IMG/VR virus record: IMGVR_UViG_3300013132_000315
Coordinates: 1-20,903 of that record
From: a virus
Reading direction: 5' to 3' (one strand)
Length of the DNA: 20,903 bases
The notes under the pieces were generated by a model. It had not been told where the DNA came from. It saw only the letters and a program-made list of their open reading frames with translations, and did no database searches. The position numbers and the translations under genes are program-made. This document shows positions 6,320 through 12,353 of this stretch, in pieces (the stretch's first letter is position 1; the number at the start of each line of letters is the position of its first letter).

Positions 6320-6667
6320 TTAGAAGAGGTGGTTGGTCGCGCCGATCGTCACCTGTTGAAAATCATTGGGCGCTCGGGACACGGCAACGCTGTCGACGAA
6401 AAAGGTGCCGGTGACGCCCGCCAGGCTCGCGGTGGCGTTGGCCAAGGTGATGCTGGCGCCGATGGTCGGAAGGGACGCTTTAATGTAGCCGCTGAGAGAG
6501 GCGACACTCTTCTTGCCGTGATAGGCGGCGGCGACCATGTCGCCGTCTTCGTCAACGACGATGGTTTTGTCGCTGTCCGAGGTCTGGGAAAAGCTGGTGA
6601 AAACGCAGGTGGTTTCCGAAGAACCGCCGAAAGTGATGCTGGTGAGTCCGACAATGGTGGCTGCCAT
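6320..6667 (-). CDS. Putative tail tube protein, 115 aa
   Basis: The protein is almost entirely beta-type, with Thr/Ser/Gly-rich strands: ATIVGLTSITFGGSS, KTIVVDEDGDMVAAAYHG, ASITLANATASLAGVTGTFF and VDSVAVSRAPNDFQQVTIGA. The final phrase, strand plus NDFQQVTIGATNH, is frequent in tail tube proteins. At 115 residues it is shorter than lambda gpV but within the range of small tube proteins. Its place before the assembly chaperones and tape measure agrees with a tail tube. It could instead be a small decoration protein, but the tail position argues against that. Confidence 0.6.
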   Translation of the reverse strand: MAATIVGLTSITFGGSSETTCVFTSFSQTSDSDKTIVVDEDGDMVAAAYHGKKSVASLSGYIKASLPTIGASITLANATASLAGVTGTFFVDSVAVSRAPNDFQQVTIGATNHLF

Positions 6668-6940: not shown

Positions 6941-7349
6941 AGGTTACAGGATCAAATTCCAAGCCCCAGACTTTGACGATGTCTTCGGCGTTCAAGTCGG
7001 TGAGGAACTGGTCGGCATCGACCAAGTCGGACAAGGTTTTCCAAAGGGACTTGAAGCCCGCGGCTCCTTCGTCGGTGTCGTCGGTGTCGGGCAGGCGGCG
7101 TTCGTTGCGCTCGGCGTCGGGGGTTTCGTCGGCCGCGGTGGTCAGGGTGATGGTGAGGCGGCAGTTCCAGGTCTGCATGCCGAGGACAAGCTCGTCGAGT
7201 TTCTCGGCGCGGACGGTAATCTGCGGCAACTCGTCTTCGTCGGACTCGTCGGCGCTGACGATGCGGACGTCGGCGAGGTCGGTGTCGTCCTCGAGGACGG
7301 CGATGGCGGCGCGTTCGAGGGATTCTTCGATGGAGTAAAGGGTGCTCAT
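6864..7349 (-). CDS. Putative tail terminator-like protein, 161 aa
   Basis: The start ATG 7349 (MSTLYSIEESLERAAIAVLED) overlaps the previous stop; an upstream extension to 7568 would be a shadow of the joining-protein gene and was rejected. The protein is acidic, with DTDLADVRIVSADESDEDEL early, then strands ITVRAEKLDELVLGM and NCRLTITLTTAADET, then LWKTLSDLVDADQFLTDL, followed by RSLNARLWCNEAF. An N-terminal helix, four strands and helix layout is expected for lambda gpU-type tail terminators, and the position between joiner and tube agrees. The next gene overlaps by 77 bases. Confidence 0.5.
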   Translation of the reverse strand: MSTLYSIEESLERAAIAVLEDDTDLADVRIVSADESDEDELPQITVRAEKLDELVLGMQTWNCRLTITLTTAADETPDAERNERRLPDTDDTDEGAAGFKSLWKTLSDLVDADQFLTDLNAEDIVKVWGLEFDPVTYENETRSFRRSLNARLWCNEAFPAA

Positions 7350-7651
7350 CGCTGGTCGGGGGCTTGGAGGGTGAGGTCGATCGCGGCGGTGTCGGTGTCG
7401 ATGCCGACGATGCGGTAGCGGCGGCCGCAGTATTTGACCACGCCGCCCATACGGAACTCGGGAGCTCCGGCCTTTAAGACGGTGGCGGTGAGGCTGCGTT
7501 GGGCCTCGAAGCCGCCTTCGCCGAGGGCGTTGGCGTAGGTTTCCTCGCCGACCACGGCGGCATAGCAACGCTCGCGGTATTCGATCTGGTCGGCGATGGT
7601 GCTAACGGCCTCGGTGCAGCCGGCGGTGTAGGCTTGGGCGAACTGGGACAT
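7346..7651 (-). CDS. Putative head-tail joining protein, FII-like
   Basis: The start ATG 7651 directly abuts the preceding stop. The 101-residue protein has a helical N-terminal half (YTAGCTEAVSTIADQIEYRERC) and a beta-rich C-terminal half containing EFRMGGVVKYCGRRYRIVGI and AAIDLTLQAPDQ. Lambda gpFII-type joiners have this order of flexible N-terminal end and barrel with a RRGDxxxx-hairpin, and the gene comes before the tail terminator candidate as in lambda. The likeness is structural in style, not exact. Its stop overlaps the next start as ATGA. Confidence 0.55.
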   Translation of the reverse strand: MSQFAQAYTAGCTEAVSTIADQIEYRERCYAAVVGEETYANALGEGGFEAQRSLTATVLKAGAPEFRMGGVVKYCGRRYRIVGIDTDTAAIDLTLQAPDQR

Positions 7652-8581
7652 TTAACGGAGGGCGGTGTCAGCGGTGGCGAGCATGGCGCGCAGCGCGGCG
7701 GCGCAGTGGAAACGCTGGCGGACGAGCTGATGGGCCGCGGTGGCCACGGGTTGCAGGGCGGCAAAGTCGAGGGCCGCGACGGCATCGGCCAAGGCGTCGG
7801 CGTCGATCTCGGGGTCGAAGGCGATGCGGTGAGTGTCGGCGGGGAAGAATTCGTTGCGCGGGTCCATGGGTTGCGCTTCGACGATGAGGGCTCCGGCGGC
7901 GGCGGCTTCGTAGCAGCGGATGCCCTGGGCGCGACCGTTGCTGGCGGGGCAGAAGACGCCGGCGTAGTTGGCGTATAGGTGGGCAACGTGGTGCGCGGTT
8001 TGCACGCCTTTGCAGATGTTGAAGACGTCGACCAGACCGCGCTTGACCAAGGGCTCAAGCAGGCGGCGGCGGCTGGAGTAGACGCCGGGGGCGTATTCGT
8101 TTGTATCGCCAATGAAGGCGAGGCGCGGGGTGCGTTGGGCGATGGGCGGACCCGGGCGAAAAGCCAGCGTGGAGACCCAGCTATGGGCAAGAAAGGCGCG
8201 GCGGCCGCGGGCGCGCATGACGTCCATGTCGCAGGCTTGGCCGTAGAAGGAAACGTCGAAGCGGTCGGCGGAGTCTTCAAAGGCGGCGTAGGCGGTCATG
8301 GGGTTGCCAAAGCACCACTCGGAGGAAAAGCCAAGGAGCGGTTTGCCGATGGCGCGCAGGGCGCGGTAGGCTTCGTCGAAAAACAAACCGTATTGCGCGG
8401 GCGAGACGCAGAGGATGGCGTCGGAGTCGGAGCGGCGGAGGACGTTGAGGACTTGGTCCGACGTGGACATGATCATGGGCACGGCGGCGCGGACGACGCC
8501 GGCGAGCTGGGCATCGGCCAGGGCCAAGGCGCCGAAGGACGGCGGCTCGTTCCAGTGGTAAAGGACGTCGACCGTTTTCAC
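7652..8581 (-). CDS. Glycosyltransferase (CgeB/GT-B type)
   Basis: The start is a GTG at 8581 overlapping the previous stop as GTGA, so the two genes are tightly coupled. The protein has 309 residues. The N-terminal half is a Rossmann-like domain (VDVLYHWNEPPSFG, LLGFSSEWCF). The second half has FIGDTNEYAPGVYSSRRRLLEPLV at 157-180 and the CgeB-type sugar-nucleotide site NGRAQGIRCYEAAAAGALIVEA at about 215-236. A GT-B enzyme beside a GT-A enzyme implies two sugar-transfer steps or two sites. The target may be capsid or tail protein, or a cell-surface molecule; the sequence does not decide. Confidence 0.82.
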   Translation of the reverse strand: MKTVDVLYHWNEPPSFGALALADAQLAGVVRAAVPMIMSTSDQVLNVLRRSDSDAILCVSPAQYGLFFDEAYRALRAIGKPLLGFSSEWCFGNPMTAYAAFEDSADRFDVSFYGQACDMDVMRARGRRAFLAHSWVSTLAFRPGPPIAQRTPRLAFIGDTNEYAPGVYSSRRRLLEPLVKRGLVDVFNICKGVQTAHHVAHLYANYAGVFCPASNGRAQGIRCYEAAAAGALIVEAQPMDPRNEFFPADTHRIAFDPEIDADALADAVAALDFAALQPVATAAHQLVRQRFHCAAALRAMLATADTALR

Positions 8582-9987
8582 CGGCGACGGTAGTGCAGGG
8601 CGGAGACGGTGGCAGTGGCCGCGGCGTCGCCCTCGAGGGCGTCGACAATGCGCTGGTCCCAGTGGAGCGGCGGGGCAGTCTCGTCGTCGATGTGGACGAG
8701 GATCTGCCCGGCGGCCGCGGTGGCGGGATCGGGCGCGTGGCGGAAGCGGAGAAGAATGGTTAGGTCGGCGTTGTCTTCGGGCAAGCCGAAAATGTGCTCA
8801 ATGCGTTCGGCGTTTTTGGCCGCGTCGAGAAAGAGCTTGCGGGTGCGCGCGGCTTGCTCGGGGCGGACGGTGACGGGTTGGATGAGGCTGATGGTCGGGG
8901 CGGTCTGGGCGGCGAGGCGGGTGGTCTCGATGGCGTCGGCCTCGGCGGTGCGGCCGGTCATGCGGAGAAGCTGGGTCCAGAGAGTCTCCGCTGCCCAGCC
9001 GTAGAGGCCGTCGCGGTGCGTCCAGACTTTTTCGATGGGGCGCGGGAGGGCCATCATGCTGCGGAGGTAGGCTTCGGCGCGGACGATGTCGCCGAGGTCG
9101 AGGTGGAGGGCGCCGAGGAGGGCCAGGGCTTCGCGGCGGTTGGGCGCGGTGCGGTAGGCGCTGTGCAGCGCGGTCATCATGGCGGCGTGCTCGGGCGTGC
9201 CGGTTTCGATGATGTCGGGGCGGGCCATCTCGGCGATGTTGAGGCAGAGTTCGTAGCGTTCGGTGGGCTCGAGGCGAGGATGGGCCAGGGCTTTTTTGGC
9301 CATGGCCATGGCGTCGTTCTTGCGGCCGGCGCCCATGTATTCGCCGTGGAGGTGGTAGATTTCGCTGAGGGTGCGGTCGGCCTCGGGGATGGATTCGAGG
9401 ATGGTGAGGTTGCGGTTGCTGCCTTGCTTGGGCTCGTCGTCTGGCAAGTGGACGACGACGGGGGCGTCACAGCGCGCGATTTTGGCGTTGGGGGCGAGCT
9501 GGAAGTTTTCGTGGATCTTGTTGATCCATTTGCCGCGGTCGCGGCGGACGACGCGCTCGCGGAGGTTGTGGGCGATGCCGCGGCCGGCGACGTCGTGGTA
9601 GAGGGCGAAGGCGTCGAAGTCGGCGGCGAACTTGGTGAAGAGCTCGTGGAGGGCGGGCGCGAAGTTGTCGCCGGGGACGTCGTCGGCGTCGATCCAGAGG
9701 ACCCAAGGCTTGGTGGCGAGGTCGAAGGACTGCTGGCGGGCGGCACCGAAGTCGTCGACGTGGGGCCAATCGTTGCCGGGGGCGTTGGCGTAGACGTCGT
9801 ATTTGGCGCCGTGCTTCTGGCAGACCTCGGCGACTTTGAGGCTCTTGGCCTCGGCGCCGGTGGCGTGGACAACGCACATCTCGCTGACGGCGGGGGCGAA
9901 TTGGGTGAGGCAGCGGTCGAGGCGCTTGGGCTCGTTGCCGACGATGAGGCAAAGCGCGATCTGCTCGCGCGGGCTCGAATTCTCCAT
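8578..9987 (-). CDS. Glycosyltransferase family 2 with C-terminal repeat region
   Basis: The start ATG 9987 (MENSSPREQ) comes 31 bases after the capsid terminator; in-frame upstream sequence to 10125 lies in the terminator and capsid gene and is not coding. The N-terminal domain has the GT-A signatures: ALCLIVGNEPKRLDRCL at about 11-27, DFGAARQQSFDLATKPWVLWIDADD at about 79-103, with the metal-binding DxD as D100-A-D102. Residues from about 195 to 340 are helix pairs of TPR type (for example YELCLNIAEMA, EALALLGALHLDLGDIVRAEAYL). A beta-rich C-terminal tail follows. The 469-residue enzyme is expected to transfer a sugar from a nucleotide donor. Its place in a head operon suggests a virion component as target, which is inference. 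It overlaps the next gene by GTGA. Confidence 0.85.
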   Translation of the reverse strand: MENSSPREQIALCLIVGNEPKRLDRCLTQFAPAVSEMCVVHATGAEAKSLKVAEVCQKHGAKYDVYANAPGNDWPHVDDFGAARQQSFDLATKPWVLWIDADDVPGDNFAPALHELFTKFAADFDAFALYHDVAGRGIAHNLRERVVRRDRGKWINKIHENFQLAPNAKIARCDAPVVVHLPDDEPKQGSNRNLTILESIPEADRTLSEIYHLHGEYMGAGRKNDAMAMAKKALAHPRLEPTERYELCLNIAEMARPDIIETGTPEHAAMMTALHSAYRTAPNRREALALLGALHLDLGDIVRAEAYLRSMMALPRPIEKVWTHRDGLYGWAAETLWTQLLRMTGRTAEADAIETTRLAAQTAPTISLIQPVTVRPEQAARTRKLFLDAAKNAERIEHIFGLPEDNADLTILLRFRHAPDPATAAAGQILVHIDDETAPPLHWDQRIVDALEGDAAATATVSALHYRRR

Positions 9988-10018
9988 CTCTGGGCGGTGG
10001 AGGTTTGTCAACAAACGA

Positions 10019-10044
10019 AAGCCCCCGGCGGTGGCCGGGGGCTT
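10019..10044 (-). terminator. Intrinsic terminator after the major capsid gene
   Basis: A GC-rich hairpin with arms GCCCCCGGC (10021-10029) and GCCGGGGGC (10034-10042), a four-base loop, and two flanking A-T pairs lies 23 bases past the capsid stop. On the minus strand it is followed by TTTCGTTTGTTG. The stem can be extended imperfectly to 10009-10051. It would end, or reduce, transcription between the capsid gene and the glycosyltransferases. Confidence 0.85.
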
Positions 10045-10067
10045 CGTGTTGCGGCTGACGGGGCGGA

Positions 10068-10961
10068 TTAGCCCGTGATGAGTTTGGCGGCGCCGGTGAT
10101 CGCGCGGCTGTGGCCGAAGACGCACTCGAAGGAGGCGCTGTGGCGGCCGTTGAGCGGGTTATACACGCGGCGGTAGCCGAGCGAGAGGCCGCTCTGCGGA
10201 TCGGTGATCGTGGTGGCGGCCAGGTATTCGCTGGGGGCCTGCGGCTCAAGCGAGCGCACGGCCACGGCGACGGCGTTCGGGTGAACGGCCAGACCTTTAA
10301 GGGTGATGCTGTTCGAGGGCAGGATGACCGACTCGTAGACGTTCATGCCGAGCAGGCGCGGGACGCGGGCTTCGGCAATAGTGTCGCGGGCGCCAAACTG
10401 CGAGGCGTCCAAGAGGTTGGCCTGCGACAGAAGGCTGTCGTAGAGGGCGCTGTCGAGGATGAGGCTGCGCTCGGTCATGGGCACCTTCTCGTCCGTGAGC
10501 GCCTTGCGGAGCGTGCGGGCGTTGGTGATGGTGAAGGCCGAGGCGCCGGTGACCGACGCGGTGTATTGCGCGGCCGCTCCTGCGGTGGTGACAAACAGGT
10601 TGAGCACCGAGGTAAGGACCGCCTGGGCGAGGGCTTTGCCCTGCTGGTTGGCGAACTTGGTCAGCTCGGCAATCGAGGATTTGGAATACTCGGTGTCGCT
10701 CAAGGAGACCGTCACGATCTTGTGCTTGTCGACGGTGATCGACACGGTGTTGAGCGTGCCGCCGGTGCCACCGTAGTCGTCGTCAAAGGTTGTGGCTGTG
10801 AGGTTCGCCACCAAGGGAACTTCCACAGTCGCGCCGCGGCGGACGACCTCGTTGGAATACGAGGTGGTGAAGACGTTGAGCGGAAGGAGTTCCGCGGTGA
10901 AAGCCTCAAGCGCGGTCTGCGCCAGGAGCTTGTCGTTTAGGGCTGAATTGATTGTGGCCAT
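10068..10961 (-). CDS. Major capsid protein (HK97-fold, P22-coat-like)
   Basis: The 297-residue protein follows the protease-scaffold gene and precedes a terminator, the usual place for the main coat gene. The N-terminal end reads as in P22-type coat proteins: a helix (TALEAFTAELLPLNVF), then SNEVVRRGATVEVPLVANL, a basic loop followed by a strand. The middle has helix segments (FANQQGKALAQAVLTSVL) and a segment TITNARTLRKALTDEKVPMTERSLILD typical of the coat protein A-domain approach, and the C-terminal half has GMNVYESVILPS and a tail with a LSLGYRRVYNPLNGRH phrase. No Shine-Dalgarno sequence is visible before the ATG at 10961. Family assignment is by overall pattern and context. Confidence 0.85.
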   Translation of the reverse strand: MATINSALNDKLLAQTALEAFTAELLPLNVFTTSYSNEVVRRGATVEVPLVANLTATTFDDDYGGTGGTLNTVSITVDKHKIVTVSLSDTEYSKSSIAELTKFANQQGKALAQAVLTSVLNLFVTTAGAAAQYTASVTGASAFTITNARTLRKALTDEKVPMTERSLILDSALYDSLLSQANLLDASQFGARDTIAEARVPRLLGMNVYESVILPSNSITLKGLAVHPNAVAVAVRSLEPQAPSEYLAATTITDPQSGLSLGYRRVYNPLNGRHSASFECVFGHSRAITGAAKLITG

Positions 10962-10979: not shown

Positions 10980-11351
10980 TTAGGAGTAGAAGGTTTTGAG
11001 GATCTCCGCTTTGTTGGCGCGGAAGAACTGGGTGGCTTCGGGGCCTTCGAGGGCGGCAAATTTCTGCGCGGCGGTCAACTCGGGCACGACCGGGGTCGCG
11101 TTGTTGTCGATGCCGACGGAGGCGACGATGGCGGCGGCCTGCTCGCCGGCGCTTTTCTGCTCGGCGCGGAGGGTGGCGATCTCCTCGTCGCGGGTGGCGA
11201 CTTCGCTGGAGAGGCGGGCGACTTCGGCTTTGAGGGTTTCGAGTTCCTTGGCCGTGTCCTCGGCGGCTTGCGCCTGGGCGGCTTCGGCTTCGACTTTGGC
11301 GCTGAGTTCCGCCTGGAGGGCGTCAACTTTCGCTTGAAGTTCGGCGTTCAT
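10980..11351 (-). CDS. Predicted internally started scaffold protein, 123 aa
   Basis: Within the protease-scaffold gene and in the same frame, an ATG at 11351 (MNAELQAKVDALQ) is preceded five bases upstream by GGAGG, the best ribosome binding site of this head module. Starting here would make only the coiled-coil part, which is what lambda does with Nu3 inside gene C. The coiled coil covers about residues 1-75 and a helical C-terminal tail (LEGPEATQFFRANKAEILK) may bind the capsid protein. An in-frame ATG 60 bases further upstream lacks such a site. The ribosome binding site is seen; separate production of the short product is inferred. Confidence 0.65.
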   Translation of the reverse strand: MNAELQAKVDALQAELSAKVEAEAAQAQAAEDTAKELETLKAEVARLSSEVATRDEEIATLRAEQKSAGEQAAAIVASVGIDNNATPVVPELTAAQKFAALEGPEATQFFRANKAEILKTFYS

Positions 11352-12353
11352 ATTATCCTCCGCGGCGGTGTCAACCGGGGCGGCGGGCTCGGGTGCGGGT
11401 TTACTGGCCATAGTGTTTTGAAATTGGGCGAAGCGGGCGCGGGCCTGCTCGGGGGTGACGGACGCGGCGGCGGCGATGGGGGCGTCGATCTCGTCGACAA
11501 AGCCGAGCTCGAGGGCTTCTTGGGCGTCCATCCACGTTTCGTCAGTCATCATCTGCTCGATGGCCGCGCGGGGCTGGCCGGTCTTGCGAACGTAGGCGTT
11601 GACCAAGGTGGCTTTGAGTTTGTCGAGTACGTCGGCTTCTTTGCGGAGGTCGTCGGCGTCGCCCATGGTCATGCTCCAGGGGTTGTGGATCATGAGGAGG
11701 GCGTTCTCGGCGATGCGGGTCTCTTCGCCGGCCATGGCAATCACGGAGGCCATGGAGGCGGCGAGGCCGTCGATGTGGACGGTCAGTCCGCCTTTGTGTC
11801 GCTTGAGGGCGTTGAAGATGGCGGCGCCTTCGGTGACGCTGCCGCCGACGGAATTGATGCGGAGGTCGATGTGCTGGCCTTTGAGCTTTTTGATGTCCGC
11901 GGCAAATTGTTTGGCGCTGACTCCGCCGAAGCCGATCTCATCGTAAAGAGAAACCTCAACGCTTTGGTCGGGATCGCGGTCGTCGGTCGAAGAAATTGCA
12001 TACCATGTGGAGTTGCGGCCCATGTTGCTGGCCTCGTTGTCAAGTTCGTCGCTTTTGCGATTGGCCCACGATTGGCCGGGGTCGCCGCCCCACAAGGCCC
12101 ACGCGATGCGGCCGGCGCTGGGATAGCCGTCCTCGCCCGGGCTGAAGCCTTCGCCTTGTTTGTCCACTTCGTGGCGGGCGAAGTAGGACTTCATGCGCTT
12201 GACCGTATCGGGTGAAAGGTTTTTGCGGTTCTTGATGTCGCGAGCGCGGGCCACGCCGACCTCGGTGCCGCCGCGATTAAACTCTTCGCGCCAGGCGAGG
12301 CCGCGCTCGGCCTCGGCAGCCATGGCCTCGGTGGGCTTGAGATCAACGGCCAT
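10980..12353 (-). CDS. Prohead protease (ClpP-like, S14) fused to scaffold domain
   Basis: This 457-residue protein has three parts. Residues 1-105 are a small domain with GLAWREEFNRGG, ARARDIKNRKNLSPDTVKRM and SAGRIAWALWGGD, known to occur next to phage head proteases but without a defined role. Residues about 112-300 are a ClpP-like serine protease: RINSVGGSVTEGAAIFNAL, the nucleophile Ser200 in DGLAASMAS, His223 in LLMIHNPW, and an acidic DETWMDA at 271-277 where the third triad residue is expected. Residues 335-457 are a coiled-coil rich in Glu, Ala and Lys, as in scaffolds, ending in a globular tail. It cleaves scaffold and itself during capsid maturation, as lambda gpC does. Confidence 0.9.
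   Translation of the reverse strand: MAVDLKPTEAMAAEAERGLAWREEFNRGGTEVGVARARDIKNRKNLSPDTVKRMKSYFARHEVDKQGEGFSPGEDGYPSAGRIAWALWGGDPGQSWANRKSDELDNEASNMGRNSTWYAISSTDDRDPDQSVEVSLYDEIGFGGVSAKQFAADIKKLKGQHIDLRINSVGGSVTEGAAIFNALKRHKGGLTVHIDGLAASMASVIAMAGEETRIAENALLMIHNPWSMTMGDADDLRKEADVLDKLKATLVNAYVRKTGQPRAAIEQMMTDETWMDAQEALELGFVDEIDAPIAAAASVTPEQARARFAQFQNTMASKPAPEPAAPVDTAAEDNMNAELQAKVDALQAELSAKVEAEAAQAQAAEDTAKELETLKAEVARLSSEVATRDEEIATLRAEQKSAGEQAAAIVASVGIDNNATPVVPELTAAQKFAALEGPEATQFFRANKAEILKTFYS

Follow-up and report, generated by a model that had tools for sequence, protein, structure and literature searches.

A putative virion glycosylation cassette in the head operon of an uncultured phage and its relatives

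The stretch of DNA analysed here (hereafter, the window) is a linear IMG/VR virus record of 20,903 bp, with a head operon on its minus strand. Two glycosyltransferase (GT) genes, GTA and GTB, are located between the capsid and connector genes of this operon, and this arrangement is not due to chance. Sequence comparisons and structural models suggested that these genes probably represent a cassette for virion glycosylation that forms part of the head operon. The preliminary description of this DNA had reported two coupled GTs that overlap by GTGA and lie behind a hairpin between the capsid and connector genes. All of the coordinates of this arrangement were confirmed, as was the overlap in the window, but the pair as such is not general: the constant unit is GTA and not GTA plus GTB, and GTB is optional, being present only in some sublineages.

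Organization of the locus and architecture of the two enzymes

Table 1. Positions in the window of the cassette, its parts and its neighbors
Feature	Position	Strand	Basis
GTA, 469 aa (ATG 9987 to stop 8578): GT2 (GT-A) domain, TPR-like helical repeats, second-GT2 remnant	8578..9987	-	
GTA domain 1, residues 1-185, catalytic GT2 domain, D-A-D-D	9433..9987	-	PF00535, invariant columns
GTA helical repeat region, residues 186-361, TPR-like	8905..9432	-	all-helical model, weak TPR_19 match
Truncated second GT2 domain, residues 362-469	8581..8904	-	alignment, PF00535 twice in full-length relatives, raised dN/dS
GTB, 309 aa (GTG 8581 to stop 7652), GT-B fold resembling GT4-type glycosyltransferases	7652..8581	-	PF13524, model, Foldseek PDB
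GTGA stop/start overlap of GTA with GTB	8578..8581	-	sequence
Terminator-like hairpin in the gap between the capsid gene and GTA	10018..10045	-	hairpin search, fold energy, covariation
Major capsid protein gene	10068..10961	-	PHROG 283/267
FII-like connector gene, bordering the cassette downstream	7346..7651	-	weak PF05354, synteny in relatives

The gene upstream of GTA encodes a major head protein (PHROG 283, 1.5e-24), and a lambda-family portal and a ClpP-type head protease are encoded further upstream of the capsid gene. Downstream of GTB, the match to the FII/head-tail attachment family was weak (PF05354, 0.011). The operon had been described as lambda-type; the terminase, portal and protease agree with this description, and the capsid family does not. 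Translational coupling of GTB to GTA through the GTGA overlap is likely. Within the ClpP-like head protease gene (10980-11353, minus strand), we also observed an in-frame ATG at 11351 that is preceded by GGAGG; a start at this codon would yield a nested coiled-coil product of 123 aa, comparable to the C/Nu3 scaffold of lambda.

Pfam searches with GTA identified PF00535 (25.1 bits, cut-off 23.3) together with weak TPR matches. Among 24 diverse homologues, with identities down to approximately 30%, residues D100, D102, D103, H159 and E160 were invariant, and residues 186-361 were entirely helical in the AlphaFold model (overall pLDDT 84, pTM 0.72). The best fold matches of this model in the PDB were the glycocin S-glycosyltransferases SunS and ThuS (1.9e-14), which act on secreted bacteriocin peptides; enzymes of the TarS/TarP type were the next fold class (1e-7), and the best PDB match by sequence was the flagellin glycosyltransferase GmaR (2.6e-4). 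GTA scored only 18.7 bits against the SunS family TIGR04195 of NCBIfam, far under the curated cut-off of 350 that defines membership. As in the GT2-TPR enzymes of the SunS/GmaR type, a GT-A domain with a D-x-D motif is followed by TPR-like helices in GTA, and this predicted architecture is that of protein glycosyltransferases. The earlier proposal that a TPR-like repeat makes a protein substrate plausible is strengthened by the SunS/ThuS fold match and the GmaR sequence match. PHROG 13126 (beta-1,4-glycosyltransferase) was matched both by GTA (4.2e-15) and by the GTA of the second phage lineage described below (5.4e-29).

In most relatives, GTA has approximately 595-600 aa, and the repeats are followed by a second GT2 domain (D2) that is complete; in full-length relatives, PF00535 was found twice in the frame. 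The alignment revealed that the window GTA from approximately residue 362 onward corresponds to the first half of D2 and not to a further repeat, the D2 of the relatives being approximately 125 residues longer than the remnant in the window. Thus, the C-terminal helix-repeat region of the preliminary description is a repeat region over residues 186-361, whereas the remainder is a truncated second GT2 domain. The first half of D2 alone is retained in the window and in L007, L008, L009 and L020. The dN/dS value of the D2 remnant was 0.56-0.76 in pairs that include the window, compared with 0.09-0.17 for intact D2 in other pairs; because the value for L008 vs. L020 was 0.13, however, the remnant is not simply dead sequence. 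The dN/dS values of domain 1 of GTA were low (0.07-0.41).

For GTB, the Pfam search identified PF13524 (25.3 bits, cut-off 25), and the top PDB matches of its model (pLDDT 91.7) in Foldseek were GT4-type enzymes. No relatives of GTB were found in INPHARED, and those of GTA in this database were only distant, namely Manatee Spring contigs and, via the lineage-2 query, DSL-LC01 and PaBG, in both of which the GTA relative is close to virion-related genes. The D2 domain of GTA occurs as two subtypes. Among the contigs in which the interval was readable, GTB was absent from all 23 with subtype I and present in all 15 with subtype II or a truncated D2 (Fisher p 6e-11, a value that is overstated since the sequences are related). 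With GTB confined in this way to subtype II and truncated D2, GTB and D2 seem to be functionally connected.

Linkage to the capsid gene across relatives

Relatives were collected by two alignment scans. The capsid scan yielded 61 loci with 66-100% identity, 14 of which stop within approximately 140 bp of the capsid gene, while the other 47 have at least 190 bp beyond it. GTA was found downstream of the capsid gene in all 47 of these lineage-1 contigs, and it was also present in L107 and L108 (capsid 63%). Usually nothing lies between the two genes in lineage 1; in a single one of the 47 contigs, an N6/N4 DNA methylase gene (PF01555, L046:9983-11224) is inserted between them, and this insertion counts against the cassette reading in that it reveals a gap open to unrelated genes. 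The scan with the N-terminus of GTA yielded 163 relatives, 80 of which were kept, and 30 of these 80 formed a second lineage (L114-L143) with approximately 30% identity. The capsid of lineage 2 comes from another family (PHROG 1005), and GTA again followed the capsid gene in 30 of 30 contigs. The homologues are thus not scattered, and the linkage to capsid genes that the preliminary description had proposed as a check is borne out in both lineages. In the Manatee Spring phage ctKR88, a GT2-TPR-GT1 protein is encoded two genes past the capsid gene, with further sugar enzymes after it.

Among more distant capsid relatives, GTA was missing from Verrucomicrobia phage P8625 and from twelve Verrucomicrobiota prophage regions, which also counts against the cassette reading. 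A profile search of genome contigs with the close GTA alignment gave no match, while the profile of domain 1 plus TPR identified four loci, one of them a phage contig of a Chthoniobacteraceae MAG. Lineage 1 probably infects Verrucomicrobiota, because the capsid of P8625 shows 28% identity to that of lineage 1, the capsid gene and GTA are adjacent in the Chthoniobacteraceae MAG, capsid homologues occur in 17 of 388 Verrucomicrobiota genomes, and D2-like GT2s are found in three Verrucomicrobiota genomes.

The distances of GTA (domain 1 plus TPR) correlated with those of the portal (r 0.83) and capsid (r 0.66) and not with those of variable tail genes (r 0.05 and -0.10), although this mirror-tree test is only weak evidence because linkage alone gives correlation and gene proximity partly explains the coevolution signal. 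In 21 near-complete relatives, PF00535 matches were confined to GTA or, in two lineage-2 phages, to a GT2-like gene of the head operon.

The hairpin behind the capsid gene was the best terminator-like site in the window, with 12 pairs, 9 of them GC, and a fold energy of -34 kcal/mol (z = -4.6). It was present in all 33 distinct capsid-GTA intergenic sequences of the relatives (59 loci); in an alignment of 18 distinct rows, 99.5% of the cells are paired, both sides have changed in 4 pairs, and the covariation score was reached by no shuffle. These patterns indicate that the structure at this site is under selection. The strong terminator of the preliminary description is therefore upheld as to site, stability and conservation but not as to its T tract, which is modest, with only 5 T among 8 letters in the tail CGTTTGTTGA. 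This putative terminator is most naturally read as causing partial termination, and conservation under covariation is consistent with control of enzyme dose by it. The motif GTTGACA directly behind the hairpin (10006-10012, minus strand) is invariant in the aligned intergenic sequences; as a -35 box it was rejected, because a matching -10 at suitable spacing is lacking and the 7-mer is not restricted to this position in the window.

The accessory enzymes in the same interval are variable. In lineage 2, Methyltransf_24 and FkbM methyltransferases and further GT-like genes were found between the capsid and tail genes, together with a sulfotransferase in L135 and L136. An extra small GT2 is encoded between GTA and GTB in L056 and L155, and that of L056 matched only GTs of Mycobacterium and Gordonia phages (54 records among 50,697 phage records). 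In the Chthoniobacteraceae MAG (L195:2253-4706, L158:1-2277), GTA carries a class I methyltransferase as a C-terminal fusion; the fused gene comes after a capsid gene fragment in L195 and is followed in L158 by a small GT2 with 35% identity to Che8 gp108 (1e-22). In another phage, a transketolase pyrimidine-binding protein and a radical SAM protein after GTA replace the usual accessory enzymes (L143:2821-5865) and perhaps make an unusual sugar.

Proposed mechanism and alternative explanations

In the proposed mechanism, a newly synthesized head protein is most likely bound by GTA through its TPR-like docking region, which resembles those of SunS and GmaR. The best candidate for this protein would be the product of the gene immediately before GTA, the major capsid protein, which by linkage is the most likely acceptor. 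GTA would most likely place the first sugar on a side chain of the bound protein, and GTB, translated in coupling with GTA, would most likely add the second. In the relatives, the second GT2 domain of GTA, extra GTs, methyltransferases or the sulfotransferase may extend or tailor the glycan. The hairpin most likely serves as a partial terminator that would keep the expression of the enzymes well below that of the capsid.

A variant that overlaps with this scenario is that the acceptor is not the capsid but another virion protein, such as a head decoration or tail tube protein, which we regard as possible but rather unlikely. Mycobacteriophages are reported to glycosylate both capsid and tail tube proteins (PMC12363180), and GTA borders on the capsid gene and on connector genes alike. 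In addition, LamG-like or BspA-type LRR proteins are often encoded between the capsid gene and GTA in lineage 2 (L135:3582-5105, L129:5226-5966, L137:3860-5152); these are possible head surface proteins and possible acceptors, and in this lineage they could be modified rather than the capsid. In lineage 1, however, the gap is usually empty, and in the weak mirror-tree test the distances of GTA showed a correlation of only 0.27 with a possible tail tube gene (6320-6667), compared with 0.66 for the capsid.

The other readings (ALTERNATIVES) are host-surface modification, DNA glucosylation and mobile cargo. The first two had been offered as alternatives in the preliminary description, and both lost ground because their usual partner genes were absent from near-complete relatives. 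Modification of the host surface late in infection, for superinfection exclusion or release from the receptor, would agree with the filing of PHROG 13126 under moron/host takeover, with TarS and TarP, which are wall teichoic acid GTs, as the next fold matches of GTA, and with the fact that GT-B enzymes of the GT4 type often act on lipid-linked glycans. We nevertheless consider it improbable: a GtrA flippase was found in 0 of 21 near-complete relatives, a search of GTA and GTB for membrane-like segments found no strongly hydrophobic stretch of 19 residues (maximum mean hydropathy 1.04 and 1.46), and the position in the head module is constant in two lineages and not mobile. Still less probable is that these are accessory cargo (moron) genes that occupy a permissive gap and are unrelated to the virion. 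Although GTB and the other accessory genes vary and the gap accepted a methylase in L046, GTA was never missing in the 47 and 30 contigs, no GTA-less member with the same capsid was found, the dN/dS of domain 1 is low, and the distances of GTA track those of the portal and capsid and not those of variable tail genes. Glucosylation of modified phage DNA, as in T4, is very improbable despite the GT-B fold of GTB and the DNA methylase in the gap of L046, given that a thymidylate-synthase/dCMP-hydroxymethylase homologue (PF00303) was found in 0 of 20 near-complete relatives, that GTA looks like a peptide GT equipped with a domain for protein docking and that GT4-type enzymes head the PDB matches of GTB.

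Returning to virion glycosylation, we tentatively suggest a modular and fast-varying surface-glycan system, in which a constant initiating GT, always beside the capsid gene, would start a glycan on the head and be combined with exchangeable GTs, methyltransferases and sulfotransferases, giving each phage a particle 'serotype' of its own, at an expression level set by the terminator. If so, virion glycosylation would belong to the core traits of entire phage lineages, outside Actinobacteria and away from animal immunity. Phage virion glycosylation has been described for mycobacteriophages, with antibody evasion as its effect. Here, the putative initiating enzyme is conserved as strictly as a structural gene across two lineages of uncultured phages, of which at least one probably has Verrucomicrobiota hosts, and its natural role would therefore be other than antibody evasion. 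Glycosylation could instead serve adhesion, stabilize the particle, protect it from proteases or grazers, or contribute to receptor use. The variable accessory enzymes would allow glycan structure and its selective value to be tested in sister phages whose only difference is the cassette.

Comparison with known glycosylation systems

Two features of virion glycosylation of the mycobacteriophage type, phage-encoded GTs and an association of GT genes with virion genes, were both found here, and the anatomy of the putative cassette works like that of these systems. One close parallel is Corndog (cluster O), in which gp35-gp38, encoding an O-methyltransferase, two GTs and a putative GlcNAc-transferase, lie inside the head operon, like the sugar-modifying enzymes of the window. 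The position differs (between portal and protease in Corndog, between capsid and connector genes here), as do the hosts, and the two were compared by description. Modified capsid subunits were suggested by the authors of the Corndog study (PMC4351075), and its capsid glycosylation is reported to need gp38 (Freeman 2023, as cited in PMC12363180).

Among protein glycosyltransferases, SunS and ThuS are the nearest in fold to the GTA model, with a weak sequence match to the SunS family. GmaR, the flagellin O-GlcNAc transferase of Listeria, has an N-terminal GT followed by a TPR domain, as in GTA, but runs on into an antirepressor domain, whereas in GTA the next element is a second GT2 domain or what is left of it. 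GmaR glycosylates flagellin, which its TPR has been proposed to recognise (PMC9638930), and the TPR portion of the GT-B enzyme FlmG binds flagellin by itself (PMC7591256). PHROG 13126, matched by GTA, has no assigned virion role.

Che8, another phage with a glycosylated capsid, differs in that it carries its GT genes at the far end of its genome and has the adaptor gene directly after the capsid gene. The association of GT and virion genes that is seen in Corndog is thus not required for capsid glycosylation. In Che8, gp110 is reported to be essential for this modification (Freeman 2023, as cited in PMC12363180), and gp108 is located in one cluster with it, two genes away. Comparison of GTA and GTB of the window with Che8 gp108-110 gave no significant similarity. 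The accessory GT2 of the cassette relatives, however, matches gp108 (29-35%), and this similarity provides a putative link, at the sequence level, between the cassette and known virion glycosylation systems.
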